64,000 nt of DNA from assembly GCF_009755225.1 (NCBI RefSeq), contig NZ_WQKZ01000004.1, positions 124,001 through 188,000 on the forward strand, given 5' to 3'. The notes beneath the pieces are model-generated. The model was not told where the DNA came from. It saw only the letters and a list, made by a program, of their open reading frames with translations, and did not search any database. Both the position numbers and the translations under genes were made by a program. Position 1 is the first letter of the stretch. Each line of letters starts with the position of its first letter. This stretch comes from Hymenobacter ginkgonis (GTDB lineage: Bacteria > Bacteroidota > Bacteroidia > Cytophagales > Hymenobacteraceae). Below, one piece after another: positions 19,705-28,826 of the stretch.

Positions 19705-20088
19705 ATGGAGGAATTAACCAAAACCGAAGAGCCCATTATGCAGGTGCTCTGGAAGTTGAAGCAAGCATTTGTAAAGGATATCATCGAGCACTTGCCCGAC
19801 GACCCCAAGCCGCCCTACAACACAGTGTCGTCGGTGGTGCGGATTTTAGAGCGCAAAGGCTACCTGGGTTTCAAAGCCTATGGCAAAACCTACGAGTACT
19901 TTCCGCTCATCAGCAAGGCGCAATATCGGGCCCAAAGCCTGAAGCGCATGCTGGCCCGCTACTTCGATAATTCGCCGACTGCGCTGGTGTCGTTCATGGT
20001 TGAGGAAACCTTGAACCCCAAGGAGTTGCAGCAGCTGCGCAAGCTGCTCGACGATGACCAGGCCAAAAACACGCCTGGCTATGACTAG
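19705..20088 (+). CDS. BlaI/MecI/CopY family transcriptional repressor
   Basis: 127 residues with the family winged helix at the N-terminus (LTKTEEPIMQVLWKLKQAFV, then YNTVSSVVRILERKGYLGFK) and a C-terminal dimerisation helix region (ALVSFMVEETLNPKELQQLR). BlaI proteins bind palindromic operators as dimers and are inactivated when the partner M56 peptidase senses a signal. The partner gene overlaps its stop by 8 bases, and a perfect palindromic operator lies just upstream. No beta-lactamase gene is adjacent, so the regulated output may be something else. Confidence 0.93.
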   Translation: MEELTKTEEPIMQVLWKLKQAFVKDIIEHLPDDPKPPYNTVSSVVRILERKGYLGFKAYGKTYEYFPLISKAQYRAQSLKRMLARYFDNSPTALVSFMVEETLNPKELQQLRKLLDDDQAKNTPGYD

Positions 20089-21532
20089 CCATTGGCTTCT
20101 GTACCTGCTCGCGGCCACCGGCTGCCAAGCGGTGTTTGCGCTCTTCTACTGGTTGCTGCTGGCGCCACTTTCCACCTTTGGCTGGAACCGCACCTATTTG
20201 CTGAGCGCGCTCCTGCTGAGCGCCGCCCTACCCCTACTTGCACTGCCCACGGCCTGGGCACCGCTGGTGTGGCCCAGTAGCCCCGTTGTTCCAACTCTGG
20301 CCCTACCCCCTTGGCAACTAGCTACCTACCGTACTGCCCCTACCGAAGTGGCGACGCAAACCGGCGTGCCGTGGCTACTGCTAGCCTTGGCTACCTACTG
20401 GCTAGGGGTGGCGTACCAGGCTTGGCGCCTGGCGCGCAGCCTAGCCTGGCTCTATTTGCTAAGCCGGCAGCACCCGCGCACGCGCCTCGGGCGGGGCTGG
20501 CTGGTGCAGCTCCCCGAGCCCAGCCAGCCAGCGTTTTCGTTTGGGAAATACGTATTCTTGTCGCCGGCCCACGCCCAACTTAGCCCGGCCGAGTATGCGC
20601 AACTGGTGCAGCACGAGCAGGTGCACGGCGCGCAGCACCACTCGCTCGATTTACTGCTGGCTGAGGTAGTGGGCTGCTTTTTTTGGTTTAATGGCTTGGT
20701 GCCTTACCTGCGCCAACAACTACGCACGGTACACGAGTACCTAGCCGATGCCGCCGTGACGCGCGCCGCGGGCAGCCGCGTGGCCTACGGCCGCCTGCTA
20801 CTTAAGCTAGCTGCTGGCCCGGCGCCTACTTCGCTGGTGCATCCTTTTTCCACGCGGCAGGTTGCCCTGCGCATTCGCATGCTCACCACTCCCCCCTCTT
20901 CCCCCATGAAAAAGCTTCGTTTCCTGCTAGTTATTCCGGTGGCTGTCCTGGCTTGGATAGGTGCCGCCGCCGTAAGCCCTACCCCCTCGGTGGCAGCAGT
21001 GGGGCTAAGTACGGCAGTCCCTACCCCCTCGTCCTCCGCCCAGAGCCGCATCGGCACCATTAGCTGGCAGGGCAATAAATTCCTTTCGGCCGCGCAGCTC
21101 AACGAAGCACTGGACCTGCGCCCCGGCGACCCCTACGACTCGACGGTAGTGGAAGCCAAACTGGGTGCTTGGGCCGACAGCCGCACGATTACTTCGCGCT
21201 ATATGGACCACGGCTACCTGTTTTTCAGCATCAAGCCTGTGGCTAAGCCGCAGCCCAACGGCACCACCGACTTGCTTTTTATTCTTAACGAAGGGCCTAC
21301 TGCTCAGATAAATAACATCACGGTCAAAGGCAACCACAAAGTGCCCACCGCCACCATTCTTCAGCTGGTGCCCCTGCACCATGGCGAGCTGTTTAGCCGC
21401 GCCAAGCTGCTCGCATCGCAACGCGCACTGGCTGAAAGCGGCTTGTTTGACCCCACCAAAATCGGTATCAACCCCCAGCCTACTCCGGACACTGGCTTGG
21501 TGAATATTGAATACGTGGTAGTTGAGAAGTAG
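20081..21532 (+). CDS. M56 (BlaR1-type) membrane metallopeptidase fused to POTRA-like domains
   Basis: 483 residues from ATG 20081, overlapping the blaI stop. The N-terminal half has three hydrophobic segments and the zinc motif HEQVH (178-182), with a downstream EYLAD that can supply the third ligand, as in M56 sensors. A fourth membrane segment (about 281-300, LRFLLVIPVAVLAWIGAAA) leads to a periplasmic part with two POTRA-like units (about 324-400 and 405-480): IGTISWQGNKFLSAAQLNEA, then INNITVKGNHKVPTATILQL and ALAESGLFDPTKIGI. Bacteroidota M56 proteins often carry a TonB_C domain there, so POTRA units are an unusual replacement. Probable role: signal-triggered proteolysis of the BlaI repressor, with the POTRA part sensing or docking. 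Confidence 0.85.
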   Translation: MTSHWLLYLLAATGCQAVFALFYWLLLAPLSTFGWNRTYLLSALLLSAALPLLALPTAWAPLVWPSSPVVPTLALPPWQLATYRTAPTEVATQTGVPWLLLALATYWLGVAYQAWRLARSLAWLYLLSRQHPRTRLGRGWLVQLPEPSQPAFSFGKYVFLSPAHAQLSPAEYAQLVQHEQVHGAQHHSLDLLLAEVVGCFFWFNGLVPYLRQQLRTVHEYLADAAVTRAAGSRVAYGRLLLKLAAGPAPTSLVHPFSTRQVALRIRMLTTPPSSPMKKLRFLLVIPVAVLAWIGAAAVSPTPSVAAVGLSTAVPTPSSSAQSRIGTISWQGNKFLSAAQLNEALDLRPGDPYDSTVVEAKLGAWADSRTITSRYMDHGYLFFSIKPVAKPQPNGTTDLLFILNEGPTAQINNITVKGNHKVPTATILQLVPLHHGELFSRAKLLASQRALAESGLFDPTKIGINPQPTPDTGLVNIEYVVVEK

Positions 21533-21560: not shown

Positions 21561-21591
21561 TTTGCTTTTTCATAAAAGCATCGTTCCTTTG
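21561..21591 (+). promoter_or_regulatory. Promoter of the trp operon
   Basis: TTTG (21561-21564) and TTCCTTTG (21584-21591), separated by 19 bases, match the Bacteroidota -33 and -7 elements (TTTG and TAnnTTTG, with T for A at one place). Transcription would begin near 21597, about 17 bases before the leader-peptide ATG. Confidence 0.65.
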
Positions 21592-21613
21592 CTTCCGCAA
21601 ACCGACCTAAACC

Positions 21614-21673
21614 ATGTCTTTTCTCGCAACCGTTTCGCAAAGCTGGTGGCACTCAACCTTTCCAAAAGGCTGA
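21614..21673 (+). CDS. trpL: trp leader peptide with tandem Trp codons
   Basis: A 19-residue open frame reads MSFLATVSQSWWHSTFPKG and ends with TGA at 21671-21673. The tandem TGG codons (21644-21649) lie about 75 bases before an intrinsic terminator that precedes trpE. Trp is a rare residue, so two in a row in such a position are the hallmark of ribosome-mediated attenuation: scarcity of charged tRNA-Trp would stall the ribosome there. A possible pairing of TCAACC (21653-21658) with GGTTGA (21693-21698) would be blocked by a stalled ribosome. The full set of alternative RNA folds is not resolved by eye. Confidence 0.85.
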   Translation: MSFLATVSQSWWHSTFPKG

Positions 21674-21717
21674 GCATTAGGCATATATAGTTGGTTGAAC
21701 CCTTAGAGATTCTCCAA

Positions 21718-21746
21718 GCCCGCTGCTCACCGCAGCGGGCTTTTTT
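21718..21746 (+). terminator. trp attenuator terminator
   Basis: The stem GCCCGCTG (21718-21725) and CAGCGGGC (21733-21740) is followed by six T (21741-21746). It lies between the leader peptide and trpE, about 65 bases before the trpE ATG, so it is a conditional terminator of the operon. Confidence 0.88.
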
Positions 21747-21810
21747 GTTGTCCCATTTTTTACCCTGTTTTTGCGAGTGCCGCAAAGACAGCCGTTTTTC
21801 AATCCAAGCC

Positions 21811-23253
21811 ATGTCGGCCGCTACTGCTACTTCCTCCGCTACCCTAGTTCACAGCCGCCACCGCCGCTTGCTGGCCGATACCCTCACGCCGGTAAGCTTG
21901 TACCTGCGCCTGCGCGACCAGTTTGTGGGCACGCTGCTGCTCGAAAGCTCCGACTACCACGGCAATAATAATAGCTTTTCCTACCTGTGCTTCAGCCCGG
22001 TAGCGCGGTTTGAACTCGATGGGCGGCAGCTCACGAAGCAGCACCCCGGCCAGCCGGCCCACACCACTACCCTCGCCGACCCGCGCACGGCGCTAGAGCA
22101 ATTGCGCGAGTTTCGGGCGAGCTTCCAGCCGGCCGCACCGTCGGGGCTGCCCTTCATCACCAACGGGCTGTTTGGGCACATGGCTTACGAGGCAGTGCAG
22201 TATTTTGAGGATGTGGAGCTGCGCGACAAGCCCGGCGCCAGCACGGTGCCAGCCATCGTGTACCAGGCGTTTCGCTACGTTATTGCCATCAATCACTTCA
22301 AAGATGAGTTGTATTTATTTGAGCATCAATACCTAGCCGAAGGCGAAGAACCCGAAGCTGATAAGCTCGACTACATCGAAACGCTCATCCAAAACCGTAA
22401 TTTTGCTACCCACTCGTTTCACCTTACGGGCCAGGAAACGTCTAACGCAACCGATGCCGAGTACTTGGAGCTAATACGCCTGGGCCAGCACCACTGCCAG
22501 CGCGGCGACGTGTTTCAGATTGTGCTGTCGCGGCGTTTTCAGCAAAGCTTTCAGGGTGATGAGTTTAACGTATACCGGGCGCTACGCTCGCTTAATCCGT
22601 CGCCCTACCTCTTCTTTTTCGACTACGGCAGCTACAAGCTGTTTGGCTCGTCGCCCGAGTCGCAGATTGTGATTAATAAGGGCCAAGCGGTACTCTACCC
22701 CATCGCGGGCACGTTTCGCCGCACCGGCGACGACGCGGCCGACGCCCGCCTGGCCCAGCAGCTTCTCGACGACCCCAAGGAAACCGCCGAGCATGTGATG
22801 CTCGTGGACTTGGCCCGCAACGACCTCAGCCGCCGCTGCGACGTAGTGGCCGTCGAGCGGTTCAAGGAAGTGCAGTATTATTCACACGTTATCCACTTGG
22901 TTTCCAAAGTAGTGGGCCAGTTAGGACCCGATACCGAGCCGCTCGATGTGGTAGGCGAAACCTTCCCGGCCGGCACGCTGTCGGGTGCGCCTAAGTACCG
23001 CGCCGTGCAGCTCATTGACCAGTACGAAAGCACGCAGCGCGGCTTTTATGGTGGCTGCATCGGCGCGCTCGACTTTGGCGGCGACTTCAACCACGCCATT
23101 ATGATTCGGACTTTTCTCAGCAAAGACAATACGCTGTACTACCAGGCCGGCGCGGGGGTAGTGGCGAAGTCAGTGCCGGCCAGCGAATTGCAAGAAGTGC
23201 ACAACAAGCTGGGCGCCCTGCGCGCGGCCTTGCAGCAGGCGGAAAAGGTATAA
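21811..23253 (+). CDS. trpE: Anthranilate synthase component I
   Basis: 480 residues; converts chorismate and glutamine (or ammonia from TrpG) to anthranilate. The start is ATG 21811 (MSAATATSSATLVHS). The inhibitor-binding N-terminal motif LLESSD, the conserved RGDVFQIVLSRRFQQSF, the catalytic region ILSRRF to PIAGTFRRTGDDAADA, and PAGTLSGAPKYRAVQLIDQ are all present. The length is usual. First gene of the seven-gene trp operon, downstream of the leader peptide and attenuator; feedback inhibition by tryptophan is expected from the LLESS site. Confidence 0.96.
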   Translation: MSAATATSSATLVHSRHRRLLADTLTPVSLYLRLRDQFVGTLLLESSDYHGNNNSFSYLCFSPVARFELDGRQLTKQHPGQPAHTTTLADPRTALEQLREFRASFQPAAPSGLPFITNGLFGHMAYEAVQYFEDVELRDKPGASTVPAIVYQAFRYVIAINHFKDELYLFEHQYLAEGEEPEADKLDYIETLIQNRNFATHSFHLTGQETSNATDAEYLELIRLGQHHCQRGDVFQIVLSRRFQQSFQGDEFNVYRALRSLNPSPYLFFFDYGSYKLFGSSPESQIVINKGQAVLYPIAGTFRRTGDDAADARLAQQLLDDPKETAEHVMLVDLARNDLSRRCDVVAVERFKEVQYYSHVIHLVSKVVGQLGPDTEPLDVVGETFPAGTLSGAPKYRAVQLIDQYESTQRGFYGGCIGALDFGGDFNHAIMIRTFLSKDNTLYYQAGAGVVAKSVPASELQEVHNKLGALRAALQQAEKV

Positions 23254-23272
23254 TTCAACAGGTTAAAAAAAG

Positions 23273-23368
23273 CGACATGCTGAACGCTGGGAAGCAGCTC
23301 GCGGGCAGCAGTAATTTATGTATCAGCAACGATGCGAGCGAGGTGCTTCCCAGCGTTCAGCATGAGGT
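23273..23368. repeat. Interspersed palindrome, copy 3, between trpE and trpG
   Basis: The arms CATGCTGAACGCTGGGAAGC (from 23276) and GCTTCCCAGCGTTCAGCATG (ending near 23364) are exact complements; outer and inner flanks are less exact. The core CATGCTGA is shared with the other copies, but the middle differs. Confidence 0.9.
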
Positions 23369-23394
23369 TGTAAGAAATTAATTTCAGCAAGAAA

Positions 23395-23967
23395 ATGGCC
23401 ATTCTAGTTCTCGACAACTACGATTCCTTTACCTACAACCTCGTGTATATGCTGCGCGAGCTGGGGCAGGAAGTGGAGGTGTTTCGCAACGATAAAATCA
23501 GCCTCGACGAGGTGGATAAGTATTCGCACATTTTGCTGTCACCGGGGCCGGGCATTCCGAGCGAGGCCGGCATTATGCCCGAACTAATTAAGCGCTACGC
23601 GCCAACCAAACATATTTTGGGCGTGTGCCTGGGCCACCAGGCCATTGGCGAAGCCTTTGGCGGCCAGCTCGCTAACCTGGGCGAGGTGCACCATGGTGTG
23701 GCCCACACGCTGCACCAAACGCCAGAAGCCGCTCAAAACCGTCTTTTCAACGATGTGCCGAGCGATGTGCGCGTGGGCCGCTACCATTCCTGGACCATTT
23801 CGCCCGAGGCGGTGCCAGCCGAGCTGCGCATCACGGCCCTCGACGAAAACGGCCAGGTGCTGGCCCTTGCCCACCGCGACTACGACGTGCTGGGCGTGCA
23901 GTTTCACCCCGAATCGGTGCTGACGGAACACGGCAAAACCATGTTGGCTAATTGGGTAAATGGGTAG
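23395..23967 (+). CDS. trpG: Anthranilate synthase component II (glutamine amidotransferase)
   Basis: 190 residues, class I glutamine amidotransferase supplying ammonia to TrpE. Visible are the start motif LVLDNYDSFTYNLVYMLREL, the oxyanion strand LLSPGPGIPSEAG, the nucleophile Cys in GVCLGHQAIGEAFGG, and the His-Glu pair in GVQFHPESVLTEHG. It lies about 140 bases after trpE with palindrome copy 3 between them. The same subunit may also serve p-aminobenzoate synthesis in organisms lacking pabA; that cannot be decided here. Confidence 0.96.
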   Translation: MAILVLDNYDSFTYNLVYMLRELGQEVEVFRNDKISLDEVDKYSHILLSPGPGIPSEAGIMPELIKRYAPTKHILGVCLGHQAIGEAFGGQLANLGEVHHGVAHTLHQTPEAAQNRLFNDVPSDVRVGRYHSWTISPEAVPAELRITALDENGQVLALAHRDYDVLGVQFHPESVLTEHGKTMLANWVNG

Positions 23968-23983
23968 GAAATAAGGCCCCTAG

Positions 23984-24082
23984 AACGTCCTGCTGAGCTT
24001 GCCGAAGCATCGCGCTCGCGCCGTTGAACGATTGAAATTACTGCTGCACGCGCGATGCTTCGGCAAGCTCAGCAGGACGTTT
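23984..24082. repeat. Interspersed palindrome, copy 4, between trpG and trpD
   Basis: Almost perfect arms of about 32 bases. The left arm begins AACGTCCTGCTGAGCTTGCC and runs into GAAGCATCGC; the right arm (from about 24050) is its complement. This subtype has CCTGCTGAGC instead of CATGCTGAGC, as does copy 9. It ends 17 bases before the trpD start. Confidence 0.93.
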
Positions 24083-24098
24083 TTATATTAATTATAAA

Positions 24099-25094
24099 GT
24101 GAAAGACACCCTCAACCACCTGTTTGCTTACCGCACGCTGCCCCAGGAAGAAGCGCACCGTGTGGTGCTGGGCATTGCGCAGGGCCAGTATAACCCGGCC
24201 CAGATTGCAGCTTTCCTCACCGTGTACCTCATGCGCAGCGTGACGGTGGAGGAGCTGGCTGGCTTCCGCAACGCGCTGCTGGAGCTGTGCCGCCCCGTGG
24301 ACCTCGGCGGCTACGACGCCATGGACGTGTGCGGCACCGGCGGCGACGGCCGTAACACCTTCAACATCTCTACTTTATCGGCTTTTGTGGTGGCGGGCGC
24401 GGGGCAGCCGGTGGCCAAGCATGGCAACCACGGCGTGTCGAGCATCAGCGGTAGTAGCACGGTACTGGAGTACATGGGCGTGAAGTTTACGGCTGACAAT
24501 GACGCGCTCAAGCGTCAGCTCGACGAGGCGAATATCTGCTTTCTGCACGCGCCGCTGTTTCACCCGGCGCTTAAGAATGTAGCCCCGCTGCGTAAGGAAC
24601 TAGGCGTCAAGACTTTTTTCAACATGCTGGGGCCGCTGGTAAACCCCGCCCGACCGCGCTTGCAACTAGTGGGCGTGTTCAGCCTAGAGCTGGCCCGCCT
24701 CTACGCCTACCTGCACCAGCAGGAGGTGGGTAGGGAATTTCTCATCGTGCACAGCCTCGATGGCTACGACGAGGTATCGCTCACGGGCCCGGTTAAACTC
24801 ATCAGCCGGCAGGGCGAAGAACTGCTAGCGCCTAGCGACTTAGCCCTACCCCCCACTACGCCCGAAGCCCTATTTGGCGGCGACACGGTAGCCGAAGCCG
24901 CGCATATTTTCCAGAAAGTACTGCGCAACGAAGCCCCCGAAGCCCACCGCAACGCCGTATTGGCCAATGCCGCCTTGGCCCTGCGCACAGCCGGCCGCGC
25001 GGCCAACGTTGCCGAAGGTTTGGCGCAAGCCCGCGAGTCGTTGGACAGCGGCCGGGCACGGCAGGCGTTTGAGAAATTGTTAGCTTTAAGCTAG
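24099..25094 (+). CDS. trpD: Anthranilate phosphoribosyltransferase
   Basis: 331 residues; attaches phosphoribose from PRPP to anthranilate. The PRPP loop CGTGGDGRNTFNIST, the substrate region KHGNHGVSSISGSSTVLEYM and FFNMLGPLVNPARP are clear. It starts with GTG at 24099 (MKDTLNHLFAYRTL); no better ATG lies upstream because the palindrome ends at about 24082. The length is usual. Third gene of the trp operon. Confidence 0.95.
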   Translation: MKDTLNHLFAYRTLPQEEAHRVVLGIAQGQYNPAQIAAFLTVYLMRSVTVEELAGFRNALLELCRPVDLGGYDAMDVCGTGGDGRNTFNISTLSAFVVAGAGQPVAKHGNHGVSSISGSSTVLEYMGVKFTADNDALKRQLDEANICFLHAPLFHPALKNVAPLRKELGVKTFFNMLGPLVNPARPRLQLVGVFSLELARLYAYLHQQEVGREFLIVHSLDGYDEVSLTGPVKLISRQGEELLAPSDLALPPTTPEALFGGDTVAEAAHIFQKVLRNEAPEAHRNAVLANAALALRTAGRAANVAEGLAQARESLDSGRARQAFEKLLALS

Positions 25095-25110
25095 GCGAAT
25101 TAGTTAAAAA

Positions 25111-25212
25111 AGAACGTCATGCTGAGCAAAGCGAAGCATCTCGCTCGCCTTGTTGAACAACTAAGATTACCCAGCTATACCAGATGCTTCGCCTTGCTCA
25201 GCACGTTGTTCT
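25111..25212. repeat. Interspersed palindrome, copy 5, between trpD and trpC
   Basis: The left arm has GAACGTCATGCTGAGCAAAG followed by CGAAGCATCT; the right arm has AGATGCTTCGCCTTGCTCAG followed by CACGTTGTTC. A few mismatches. The loop includes TTGTTGAACAACTAAGATTA. Confidence 0.9.
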
Positions 25213-25241
25213 GGTGTTAGAAATGTTCCGTTAGAATCCCC

Positions 25242-26048
25242 ATGACCATTCTCGATAAAATCATCGCCGAAAAGCGCCAGGAAGTAGCCCGTCGCGAGGC
25301 CGAAACGCCGGCTGCGGCGCTGCAAGCCCTACCCCCCTTCACGCGCCCGGTGCGCTCGGCGCGGGCGGCGCTCACGGCGGCGGGCTCCTCGGGCATTATT
25401 GCCGAGTTCAAGCGGCGCTCGCCGTCGAAAGGGGTTATTAATGGCACAGCGGAGGCGGGCGCTACCACGGCCGGCTACGTAGCGGCGGGCGCGGCGGTGC
25501 TGTCGGTGCTGACGGATGAGCCGTTTTTTGGCGGCACTCCCGCCGATCTGTGGGCGGCCCGGGCGGCTTGCCCAGCCACGCCCATCCTGCGCAAAGATTT
25601 TATTATCAGCGAGTACCAAATAACTGAGGCGCGGGCGCTGGGGGCTGATTTAATTTTGCTCATCGCCAGTTGCCTCACGCCGGCCGAAGTGCAGCAGTTC
25701 AGCCAGTTTGCCCACTCGCTGGGCCTCGAAGTGCTGCTGGAAGTGCACGATGAAGCCGAGCTACGCAGCCACCTCGCCGAAGCCGTTGATTTGGTGGGCG
25801 TGAACAACCGCAACCTTGCCACATTTGCCACCGATGTGGCCACGTCGGCGCGGCTGGCGGCGCTCATTCCTAGTCGCTTTGTGCGGGTGGCCGAGAGCGG
25901 CTTGCAGCACGCCAGCACTATTCTGGAGCTGCGCCAAGCAGGCTATCAAGGCTTTCTTATTGGCGAAACGTTCATGAAAACTGCCGACCCGGCGGCGGCG
26001 CTGGCAGGCTTGGTGGCTGAACTTACTACCCCCGTTTCGGCTTCTTAG
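25242..26048 (+). CDS. trpC: Indole-3-glycerol phosphate synthase
   Basis: 268 residues, TIM barrel. Conserved stretches are MTILDKIIAEKRQEVARRE, IIAEFKRRSPSKGVI (catalytic Lys), VLTDEPFFGG, ILRKDFIISEYQI, GVNNRNLATF and RVAESGLQ. It forms indole-3-glycerol phosphate from the CdRP intermediate. It is monofunctional here, since trpF follows as a separate gene 6 bases later. It carries an embedded CCTACCCC motif near 25328 giving ALPPFTRPV. Confidence 0.96.
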   Translation: MTILDKIIAEKRQEVARREAETPAAALQALPPFTRPVRSARAALTAAGSSGIIAEFKRRSPSKGVINGTAEAGATTAGYVAAGAAVLSVLTDEPFFGGTPADLWAARAACPATPILRKDFIISEYQITEARALGADLILLIASCLTPAEVQQFSQFAHSLGLEVLLEVHDEAELRSHLAEAVDLVGVNNRNLATFATDVATSARLAALIPSRFVRVAESGLQHASTILELRQAGYQGFLIGETFMKTADPAAALAGLVAELTTPVSAS

Positions 26049-26054
26049 GCACTT

Positions 26055-26690
26055 ATGCTAGTCAAAATCTGCGGTATGCGCGAGGCAGCCAATTTGTGGG
26101 CCGTGGCTGACTTGAACCCCGATTTTCTGGGGTTCATCTTCTACGAGAAGTCGGCTCGCTTTGTAGGCGACTCGCTGGACCCGGAATTGCTGCGCAGCCT
26201 GCCGCCAACCTTGCGCAAAGTGGGGGTTTTTGTGGACATGCCGCTACCCGAACTGCTCGCCACTACCACCCGCTACCTGCTCGACTACGTGCAGTTGCAC
26301 GGCCACGAGTCGCCGGCCTACTGCCGCGAAGCGCAGCACCACAACCTGCGCATTATCAAGGCTTTTTCGATAGATGAAGGCTTTGATTTCAGTACGCTGG
26401 CGGCGTATTCGTCGGTTTGTGACTTGTTTTTATTTGACACCAAAGGCGCGCATCCTGGCGGCAACGGCACGGCCTTCGATTGGCAGGTGCTAGCCAAATA
26501 CCACGGCCCTACCCCCTTCTTGCTGAGTGGCGGCCTGGGGCCCAACAATGCCAGCGAGTTGCTGCACTTTCACCACCCGCAGCTAGTGGGCTACGACTTC
26601 AACAGCCAACTTGAGTTGGCCCCTGGCCTCAAAGATGTGGCCGCCACCAAGAAGCTGCTGACCCGCCTGCAAGAGCAGTCGGCTACCTGA
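26055..26690 (+). CDS. trpF: Phosphoribosylanthranilate isomerase
   Basis: 211 residues, TIM barrel. [14 protein letters not shown] carries the catalytic Cys, [12 protein letters not shown] and [12 protein letters not shown] follow, [10 protein letters not shown] is typical, and the phosphate end motif [16 protein letters not shown] is present. It starts 6 bases after trpC, so the two are tightly coupled; trpB follows after 25 bases. Confidence 0.94.
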
Positions 26691-26715: not shown

Positions 26716-27921
26716 ATGACGACTACTGCCCCCTCACCCTACCAAGTCGATGCGGCTGGCTATTACGGCCCGTTTGGCGGCGCGTATGTGCCCGAAATGC
26801 TTTATCCCAACGTGGAGGAGCTGCGCAATAACTACCTCAAAATTATTGAGGATGCTGAATTTCAACGTGAGTTTACCCAACTGCTAACCGACTACGTGGG
26901 GCGCCCTACCCCCCTATTTCTGGCGCAGCGGCTGTCGGCCGAAATCGGCACCACCATCTACCTCAAGCGCGAGGATTTGTGCCACACCGGCGCCCACAAA
27001 ATCAACAACACCATCGGCCAGATTCTGGTGGCACAGCGGTTGGGCAAGCGCCGCATTGTGGCCGAAACTGGGGCCGGCCAGCACGGCGTGGCCACGGCCA
27101 CGGTGTGCGCCCTCATGGGCCTAGAGTGCATTGTGTATATGGGCGAGGTTGACATTGAGCGCCAGCGCCCTAACGTGGACCGCATGCGCATGCTAGGAGC
27201 CAAAGTGGTGCCCGCCAAAAGCGGCAGCCGCACCCTGAAAGACGCTACCAACGAGGCCATGCGCCACTGGATTTCAAACCCCACCGATACGCACTACATC
27301 ATTGGCTCGGTGGTGGGCCCGCACCCCTACCCCGACATGGTAGCCCGGTTTCAGTCGGTGATTTCGGCCGAGATTATTCGCCAGTTGCTGCACCAAACTG
27401 GCCGCGCTACCCCCGATTTCCTATTGGCCTGCGTGGGCGGCGGCTCCAACGCGGCGGGCGCGTTTTACCACTATTTAGATGAGCCAAGCGTGCGCCTGGT
27501 GGCCGCTGAGGCCGCCGGCCAGGGCATCGATACTGGCCACTCGGCCGCTACTACGGCGCTGGGCAAGCCGGGCATTTTGCACGGGGCCAGCACTATTCTG
27601 ATGCAAACGGCCGATGGCCAGGTAACGGAGCCTTATTCTATTTCGGCGGGGCTCGACTACCCCGGCATTGGGCCGCAGCACGCGCAGCTGTTTGCCACTG
27701 GGCGCGCTGATTTTATGTCGATTACGGATAAGCAGGCGCTGGATGCGGCTTTCCAGCTGAGCCGCTTAGAAGGCATTATTCCGGCCCTCGAAACGGCCCA
27801 CGCGCTGGCCTGCCTACCCCTCATCGGGGCCAAGAAGGACGACGTGGTGGTGGTATGCCTCTCGGGCCGCGGCGATAAGGATTTGGCCACTTATACCAAG
27901 CATTTAGAAGAATACGCTTAA
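26716..27921 (+). CDS. trpB: Tryptophan synthase beta chain
   Basis: 401 residues, PLP enzyme that joins indole and serine. [17 protein letters not shown], the PLP lysine in [35 protein letters not shown], the phosphate loop [10 protein letters not shown], and [14 protein letters not shown] are all present. The length matches TrpB1. It forms the alpha2beta2 complex with trpA, which follows after palindrome copy 6. Confidence 0.97.
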
Positions 27922-27929
27922 CCTACGCC

Positions 27930-28024
27930 TGTCATGCTCAGCTAGCGTTCGCTTGCCGAAGCATCGCTATTGCTGCCCCTAAGCCGTTCAACGGTGCAGT
28001 AGAGATGCTTCGGCATGACGGACG
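27930..28024. repeat. Interspersed palindrome, copy 6, between trpB and trpA
   Basis: The left arm GTCATGCTCAGC plus CTTGCCGAAGCATCGCTATT is longer than the right arm (AGAGATGCTTCGGCATGAC), which lacks the middle CTCAGC part, as if the copy had lost an internal segment. It ends about 17 bases before the trpA start. Confidence 0.8.
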
Positions 28025-28040
28025 GTTTTCACCTTGCCTT

Positions 28041-28826
28041 ATGAACCGCCTCACCCAACTATTTCAACGCAAAACTGCGGACGTGCTCAACGTCTATTTC
28101 ACGGCTGGCTTTCCGCAGCTTCACGACACAGTACCCGTCCTGCAAGCCTTGCAAGACGCTGGCGCCGACCTTGTCGAAATCGGGATGCCGTATTCCGACC
28201 CCGTGGCCGATGGCGAGACCATTCAGCGCAGCAACCAGCAGGCGCTGGACAATGGCATGACAGTAGCTACGCTGTTCGAGCAGCTGCACGATATTCGCCA
28301 GCAAGGCATTACAGTACCCATCCTGCTTATGGGCTACCTCAACCCAGTGGTGCAGTTTGGCATTGAGCGCTTCTGCCAGCAGTGCCAGGCGGTGGGCGTC
28401 GATGGCTTGATTTTGCCCGACTTGCCACTCGAAGTGTATGAGCGCGAGTACCGACCGCTGTTTGCGCAGTATGGCCTGCAAGTGGTATTCTTGGTGACGC
28501 CCCAGACCAGCCCCGCCCGCGTGCGCCAACTCGATGCGCTAGCCGATGGCTTCATCTACCTCGTGGCCGCTGCCGGCACCACCGGCGCCCAAACCGACAT
28601 GAACGCCGATGTGGACGCCTACCTCCGCCGTACCCAGGCATTAGGTTTGCGCAACCCTACCCTGGTAGGATTTGGCATCAGCGACGCGGCCAGCTTTGCA
28701 GCGGCTAGCCGCCACACCACCGGCGCCATTATCGGCAGCGCGTTTATTCGCTTGTTGCAGCAAGCGCCGGCTGATGGGCGGACGGCTGCCATTCAGGAAT
28801 TTGTGCGCGGGGTGCGGCCGCACTAG
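28041..28826 (+). CDS. trpA: Tryptophan synthase alpha chain
   Basis: 261 residues, TIM barrel cleaving indole-3-glycerol phosphate to indole. The start is ATG 28041 (MNRLTQLFQRKTADVLN). VYFTAGFPQL, the catalytic Glu in LVEIGMPYSDPVADGETIQR, the catalytic Asp in DGLILPDLPLEVYE, and VAAAGTTGAQTDMN are visible, together with the phosphate loop VGFGISDAASF. Last gene of the trp operon. Confidence 0.96.
   Translation: MNRLTQLFQRKTADVLNVYFTAGFPQLHDTVPVLQALQDAGADLVEIGMPYSDPVADGETIQRSNQQALDNGMTVATLFEQLHDIRQQGITVPILLMGYLNPVVQFGIERFCQQCQAVGVDGLILPDLPLEVYEREYRPLFAQYGLQVVFLVTPQTSPARVRQLDALADGFIYLVAAAGTTGAQTDMNADVDAYLRRTQALGLRNPTLVGFGISDAASFAAASRHTTGAIIGSAFIRLLQQAPADGRTAAIQEFVRGVRPH

Follow-up and report, generated by a model that had tools for sequence, protein, structure and literature searches.

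The leader ahead of trpE in Hymenobacter ginkgonis—examined within a window of 64,000 nucleotides, the whole stretch of DNA that was analysed—is very probably, as judged from its sequence, a ribosome-mediated attenuator of the classical type that makes transcription depend on tryptophan, standing before trpEGDCFBA. This is in agreement with the first-pass annotation, whose Trp attenuator remains the best interpretation, the leader peptide, terminator and antiterminator being found in order and conserved in relatives; the positions it had given for the promoter, the ORF, the WW codons, the stem with six T and trpE are all borne out by the sequence. The features of the leader are as follows:

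21562-21591, forward strand: predicted Bacteroidota-type promoter (sequence, box scan)
21562-21564, forward strand: TTG, the -33 region (sequence)
21584-21591, forward strand: TTCCTTTG, the -7 box with one mismatch to TAnnTTTG (sequence)
21614-21673, forward strand: leader ORF of 19 codons from ATG to TGA, encoding MSFLATVSQSWWHSTFPKG and presumably translated (sequence, subclade conservation)
21644-21649, forward strand: tandem Trp codons TGG TGG, aligning with the TGG runs of relatives (sequence)
21652-21674, forward strand: hairpin 1:2, CTCA and CCTTT (21652-21661) with AAAGG and TGAG (21665-21674) (lowest-energy and centroid folds, pair count)
21668-21731, forward strand: antiterminator 2:3 of 15 bp, 21668-21694 with 21714-21731 (duplex energy, shuffles, partner swap)
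21716-21746, forward strand: intrinsic terminator 3:4 with an 11-bp stem, the loop TCACC and six T (sequence, fold, compensatory changes)

Concerning the promoter, TTG (21562-21564) and TTCCTTTG (21584-21591) are separated by 19 bases. In Flavobacterium psychrophilum, the box is located at -12 to -5 (PMC9723704), and the same spacing would place the RNA start at about 21596, i.e. ~18 nt before the leader ATG at 21614. The leader ORF, with its stop codon TGA at 21671-21673, is not preceded by a Shine-Dalgarno motif; among the 99 leaders compared, a Shine-Dalgarno-like 4-mer precedes the ATG in only one, and a TTTG box is present ahead of it in 90 of the 99 units. The two adjacent Trp codons within this 19-codon ORF correspond to W runs in the relatives; in both, the short ORF repeats the codon of the amino acid that the operon produces.

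The hairpin 1:2 starts directly after the Trp codons, spans the leader stop codon and overlaps the end of the ORF; three of its pairs are changed on both sides among the relatives, and it would sequester segment 2 whenever translation is absent or has been completed. The terminator, situated before the first gene of the operon, is formed by the arms AAGCCCGCTGC (21716-21726) and GCAGCGGGCTT (21732-21742) with six T at 21741-21746, its fold amounting to -21.6 kcal/mol. As far as the antiterminator is concerned, it was previously described as not obvious, with only TTGG and CCAA seen to pair; these are indeed the last four pairs of 2:3, but the complete pairing—GG/CC, TGAGCA/TGCTCA, GGC/GCC and TTGG/CCAA—covers 15 bp with a duplex energy of -15.7 kcal/mol, begins 18 nt past the last Trp codon and excludes the terminator. 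The other pairing pointed out earlier, TCAACC with GGTTGA, is present as written, but its relevance was not upheld: it is lost in the relatives G248, MAG 341R and Larkinella, and was rejected as a part of the switch, being kept only in near-identical copies within the window's own subclade. When the 169-nt leader RNA was folded, as the first-pass annotation had suggested, both the lowest-energy and the centroid structures contained 1:2 together with 3:4, the z-score being -2.5 with 4 of 200 shuffled sequences equally stable.

With the parts, their order and their alternative pairings established, we infer the following course of events. RNA polymerase would start near 21596, and a ribosome would begin the leader ORF despite the lack of a Shine-Dalgarno motif. 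With ample charged tRNA-Trp, the ribosome reaching the stop codon would mask much of segment 2, so that segments 3 and 4 could pair and transcription would stop at the T run. If charged tRNA-Trp were scarce, the ribosome stalled on the Trp codons would mask segment 1 (21652-21661), leaving segment 2 to pair with segment 3 and transcription to proceed into trpEGDCFBA. When no ribosome is translating, 1:2 would form and the terminator would be favoured.

This scheme was explored by a folding model restricted to the RNA downstream of the assumed ribosome footprint: the folded segment began 13 nt beyond the first base of the A-site codon and ended with the terminator loop. For the window, the antiterminator pairs predicted are 14.3 and 15.5 when the A site is on the two Trp codons, 9.1 when it is on the stop codon and 4.9 without a ribosome; since 9.1 pairs remain, the release of the antiterminator at the stop codon is incomplete in the model. 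The high values are not confined to the Trp codons, 12.8-15.6 pairs being obtained for every codon from TCG 21635 to TTT 21659, with 8.7-9.1 from CCA 21662 onward. The means for 99 distinct units are 12.9 pairs at the last Trp codon, 3.4 at the stop codon and 4.5 without a ribosome, and 97 of the 99 lose at least three antiterminator pairs between the last Trp codon and the stop codon, a loss partly built into the model. Since the stop position removes segment 2 by construction, the comparison with shuffled spacers is the more telling one: it gave 15.5 versus 7.6 pairs for the window (1 of 200 shuffles as high) and 12.5 versus 8.1 for 22 representatives, of which 14 were equalled by no more than 10 of their 200 shuffles. 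Three leaders—L031, L037 and L109—fall under their own shuffled mean.

In order to see how widely the arrangement is kept, the loci of the relatives were sought via TrpE, not via the leader, and scanned by a script for WW or W-x-W in a short ORF followed by a hairpin that runs into a T-rich stretch; in the close-relative and named sets, the W could be separated by as many as two residues, the hairpin score was looser in the phylum and family draws, and some genomes are present in more than one set. Among the close relatives, TrpE was found in 34 of 39 genomes; 30 of these loci were examined initially, the other four (L183-L186) standing outside that count, and 28 of the 30 carry a W-rich leader ORF plus terminator before trpE, including all 25 loci from the same genus (the window's among them). 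The two misses are L013, with the terminator only, and L019, without either. In the named genomes, both elements were identified in 77 of 80 loci—the best 80 of at least 594 confirmed relatives—and are missing at L063, L112 and L117. The phylum draw yielded TrpE in 138 of 158 genomes, with leader and terminator in 29 of 29 newly obtained loci (one from the genus, four from the order and 24 from the class) and in 23 of 40 regions chosen by hand, most of them from distant taxa (class 5/5, outer phylum 16/31, order 2/4). In the family draw, TrpE was present in 195 of 200 genomes and the hand-picked regions had both elements in 59 of 60, the exception L225 having the terminator only. It should be pointed out that the trpE loci without a leader—L013, L019, L063, L112, L117 and L225, plus 17 of the 40 hand-picked regions—count against the attenuator reading. 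A lack of conservation of the WW peptide or of the terminator among relatives, named by the first-pass annotation as the outcome that would speak against its reading, was nevertheless not encountered, a W-rich ORF and a terminator being kept in 28/30, 77/80, 29/29 and 59/60 loci and in 23/40 of the distant set.

These comparisons also bear on the possibility that the hairpin merely terminates the upstream gene and that the WW ORF arose by chance. That gene does lie on the same strand and ends at 21532, 184 bases 5' of the hairpin; yet L010 and L011, which belong to the window's subclade, have another gene in the upstream position and still keep leader and terminator, and the W-rich ORF is seen again in other genera. 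Furthermore, a scan for a WW-coding ATG ORF of 8-40 codons with a strong terminator-like hairpin within 80 nt found the layout once on both strands of the 64 kb and in none of 20 first-order Markov random sequences, making this explanation extremely improbable. When nine other doubled residues were scanned for in the window, there were two matches for RR, one for LL, three for SS and none for the remaining six, and therefore such an arrangement can occasionally occur with common residues.

Concerning Rfam, the model RF00513 (Trp_leader) aligns over its full length with 21638-21748 at 34 bits (E-value 1.2e-4 in a search of 2 kb and 2.1e-5 in one of 351 bases), which is below its curated cut-off of 41 bits; the leader has therefore been filed as a functional analogue of RF00513, not as a member of that model. 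It is the top match of 15 in the genome, the next having an E-value of 0.017 and the lower ones being weak. A pattern search for a second Trp leader in the same genome returned only the window's and L253, and the latter was discarded as it lies inside an otherwise-read open frame.

A further alternative is that another Trp sensor—a TRAP-like protein, a T-box or an RNA binding Trp directly—controls the leader, the ORF being incidental, since a terminator by itself does not reveal what senses tryptophan. The genome, however, gave no matches to TrpR, TRAP or T-box (E-value thresholds of 0.01, 0.01 and 0.1, respectively); the control genomes were matched, the T-box and TrpR models also weakly matching a few unexpected genomes. 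Moreover, the TGG run is kept while the rest of the leader varies, and the antiterminator begins one footprint's length downstream of it. Control by such a sensor is thus considered very unlikely, and sensing by the translating ribosome is the reading retained here.

The specificity of the antiterminator was addressed by swapping partners, for which 60 units with less than 70% likeness were selected from 209 distinct ones. Segments 2 and 3 of the same leader pair with a mean of -15.0 kcal/mol, versus -11.1 kcal/mol with the segments 3 of other leaders and -11.2 kcal/mol (sd 0.37) for permuted partners; none of 20,000 permutations reached the own-partner mean, the lowest being -12.9 kcal/mol, and none did so for a set of 22 dissimilar units. 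For 99 redundant units, the corresponding values are -14.9 and -12.5 kcal/mol, and many of these units are not best paired with their own partner. The 2:3 core differs by taxon: the window has TGAGCA/TGCTCA, Larkinella TGAACAG/CTGTTCA, unit 1 of Rufibacter GGTGAA/TTCACC and Dyadobacter GATGGACG/TGTTCATC, which includes G-U. The antiterminator of the 60 units begins at a median of 17 nt past the Trp codons. In L083, the segment string chosen pairs at just six of eight positions.

Since the alignment with Spirosoma is out of register in segment 2, the pairs themselves were counted on 12 closer rows, among which Larkinella is still one base off, and the partner swap was applied to the broad set. 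The covariation check called for in the first-pass annotation had a divided outcome. For 1:2 and 3:4, six pairs are changed on both sides, with a covariation score reached in none of 500 shuffles; for 2:3, with Larkinella out of register, little covariation was seen, a single pair being changed on both sides and 54 of 500 shuffles scoring as high. In the 12 close rows, 81% of the 2:3 cells pair in register, compared with 29-48% when slid.

In addition to attenuation in cis, a role in trans may be considered for the leader RNA or peptide once released, as reported for peTrpL of Sinorhizobium (PMC7298713), and the window's subclade does keep most of the leader peptide. On the other hand, the residues ahead of the Trp codons vary among relatives, and the codons conserved after them in other Hymenobacter fall on the segments by which the RNA pairs, so an additional role of this kind appears unlikely.

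The genes following the leader, identified as ORFs by NCBIfam models except where indicated, are:

21811-23253, forward strand: trpE (matching anthranilate synthase component I models with an E-value of 5e-121, below their cut-offs)
23395-23967, forward strand: trpG
24099-25094, forward strand: trpD
25242-26048, forward strand: trpC
26055-26690, forward strand: trpF
26716-27921, forward strand: trpB
28005-28826, forward strand: trpA

Their order and common strand suggest that trpEGDCFBA is carried on one transcript. A longer frame starting with TTG at 21691 was rejected as the trpE start; it crosses the terminator and represents a chance extension. On the upstream side, the protein encoded by 20054-21532 matches weakly, by its residues 332-492, the BamA/YaeT-type models (57 bits, below the cut-off), its N-terminal part, judged by eye, presumably being a BlaR1/M56 sensor; a BlaI/CopY-like gene (19705-20088) adjoins it. 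In L010, L011 and L012, all three from the subclade, long inverted-repeat-like stretches were noticed by eye, on the unturned strand, between trpE and trpG.

Among the matches listed, the window TrpE is 89-94% identical to those of its own subclade and 60-64% identical to those of other Hymenobacter. In the TrpE tree of 41 rows, the subclade (six rows, 100/100) groups with Larkinella, Spirosoma and Fibrella (99/95), all of them within a group that also contains Dyadobacter, Telluribacter and Rhabdobacter (96/93), whereas the other Hymenobacter join Rufibacter (99/97). For TrpD and TrpC, Larkinella, Fibrella and Spirosoma likewise score higher than other Hymenobacter; TrpG is without a clear ranking, and for TrpE the score of Xanthocytophaga equals that of Spirosoma. 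The leader MSTRAFASQLWWWHSPLLQG of the subclade member L244 resembles the Spirosoma leader MNNTVNNNIWWWHSSQQG. It thus appears that the trp operon of the subclade (21811-26048 in the window; L039-L046, L092 and L244), together with its attenuator, was acquired from a Spirosomataceae-like donor, most of the subclade having probably lost one of three leader Trp codons later.

Some relatives exhibit variants of the leader. In the genus Rufibacter (16 genomes searched, TrpE in 15), two complete Trp leader units occur in series in all 15 loci, the first with a peptide like MNKTQFxHNAWWHTRQN and the second with CWWH, YWWH or WWWH; none of the 15 has an exact TAnnTTTG box in the stretch leading from the unit 1 terminator to the unit 2 Trp codons. 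The strength of the unit 1 terminator is uncertain because its T tract is interrupted (TTTGGTGTTTT). Tandem units were observed at L193-L207, at L093, L098 and L107, and at L078, the last being a separate pair in Fulvivirga marina; another Fulvivirga (L089) has a single unit. An exact TAnnTTTG box is found only 4-10 nt before the leader ATG in 13 of 71 box-bearing units, L076 and L097 being excluded since the spacing there is accounted for by an in-frame ATG farther upstream. Loci with a promoter box 4-8 nt before the ATG, and hence a putative near-leaderless RNA, are L038, L083, L084, L088, L089, L109, L114, L118 and those of the Rufibacter genus. In all 15 Rufibacter loci this gap measures 4 nt, so that the RNA there would start at the leader ATG itself, provided that the box occupies -12 to -5.

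A tRNA scan of 20 loci revealed an intact tRNA-Pro(CGG) upstream in six; in L037, a tRNA-Met is separated from the leader by 27 nt. In four Larkinella and Fibrella, only 15-24 nt lie between the end of the tRNA-Pro and the leader ATG; Spirosoma endophyticum has a decayed tRNA-Pro copy between tRNA and leader, and remnants are seen in S. arboris (24 nt) and S. luteum (16 nt, 15 of them identical), the linked or remnant loci being L047-L050, L052, L056, L051 and L058. No tRNA-Pro remnants were found in the window leader. The adjoining tRNA-Pro suggests that the leader of Larkinella and Fibrella may be expressed from the tRNA promoter. As for the surroundings, the trp operon of Larkinella (L047-L050) lies just 3' of an rRNA operon—the 23S end and 5S in L050, 5S in L048—and that of Dyadobacter L060 and L067 just 3' of 5S; transcription of the Larkinella operon as part of the rRNA transcript was rejected, a terminator-like hairpin and a promoter box standing between rRNA and tRNA-Pro in all four.

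Compared with the trp leader of Escherichia coli (RF00513), the window shares the short ORF with adjacent Trp codons, 1:2 over the ORF end, the competing 2:3 and a GC-rich terminator with a T run followed by trpE, the Rfam model aligning over its full length; it differs in having a Bacteroidota promoter, no Shine-Dalgarno motif, 34 of the 41 bits, an antiterminator broken by an internal loop and a bulge, and no TrpR found beside it. Within the phylum, strong clues to leader-peptide attenuation, with short ORFs upstream of amino acid operons, were described for F. psychrophilum (PMC9723704), and short ORFs in 5' regions reminiscent of it for Bacteroides thetaiotaomicron (PMC7366714). The phylum and the short 5' ORFs are the same; in the portions of the two reports available no trp leader or structure is named, whereas here three pairings and their conservation are described. 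According to PMC2965389, leader-peptide attenuation was not known outside Proteobacteria and Actinobacteria. The premise of the first-pass annotation that Trp attenuation is unusual for this group does not hold, because most of the Bacteroidota loci examined carry the leader and attenuation had been suggested before in the flavobacterium. Vitreschak et al. in 2004 reportedly mention Bacteroidetes.

The tandem units of Rufibacter and F. marina—not the window—recall the Salmonella mgtCBR leader, where two short ORFs in one leader form tandem attenuators for the signals ATP and proline (PMC3641672); both Rufibacter ORFs, in contrast, have Trp codons, each with its own terminator-like hairpin. The open-licence literature, outside which most subscription journals lie, contained no description that we found of Trp attenuators in Cytophagales or of two leader-peptide attenuators for the same signal in series, nor, in a narrower search, of a tRNA-linked trp leader. 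The mechanism is the textbook one, and hints from two Bacteroidota have been published; the tandem, near-leaderless and tRNA-linked variants were less to be expected, as were the signs of a Spirosomataceae origin.

Based on the above results, we lean slightly towards the view that trpE was ancestrally, and is still almost universally, controlled by ribosome-mediated Trp attenuation in the class Bacteroidia, operating without Shine-Dalgarno initiation, in some lineages on leaderless RNA, and doubled at least twice—in the genus Rufibacter and in F. marina—into series that would sharpen the response. For the genome studied here, in which no TrpR, TRAP or T-box was detected, the attenuator is the likely answer to how the trp genes are controlled. 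The tandem, near-leaderless and tRNA-linked forms represent natural experiments on the evolution of such a switch. Since the mechanism requires a ribosome trailing RNA polymerase closely, a conserved attenuator with matched antiterminator partners would, if the reading is true, offer a genetic test of ribosome-polymerase coupling, making close coupling directly testable in a phylum that does not rely on Shine-Dalgarno motifs.
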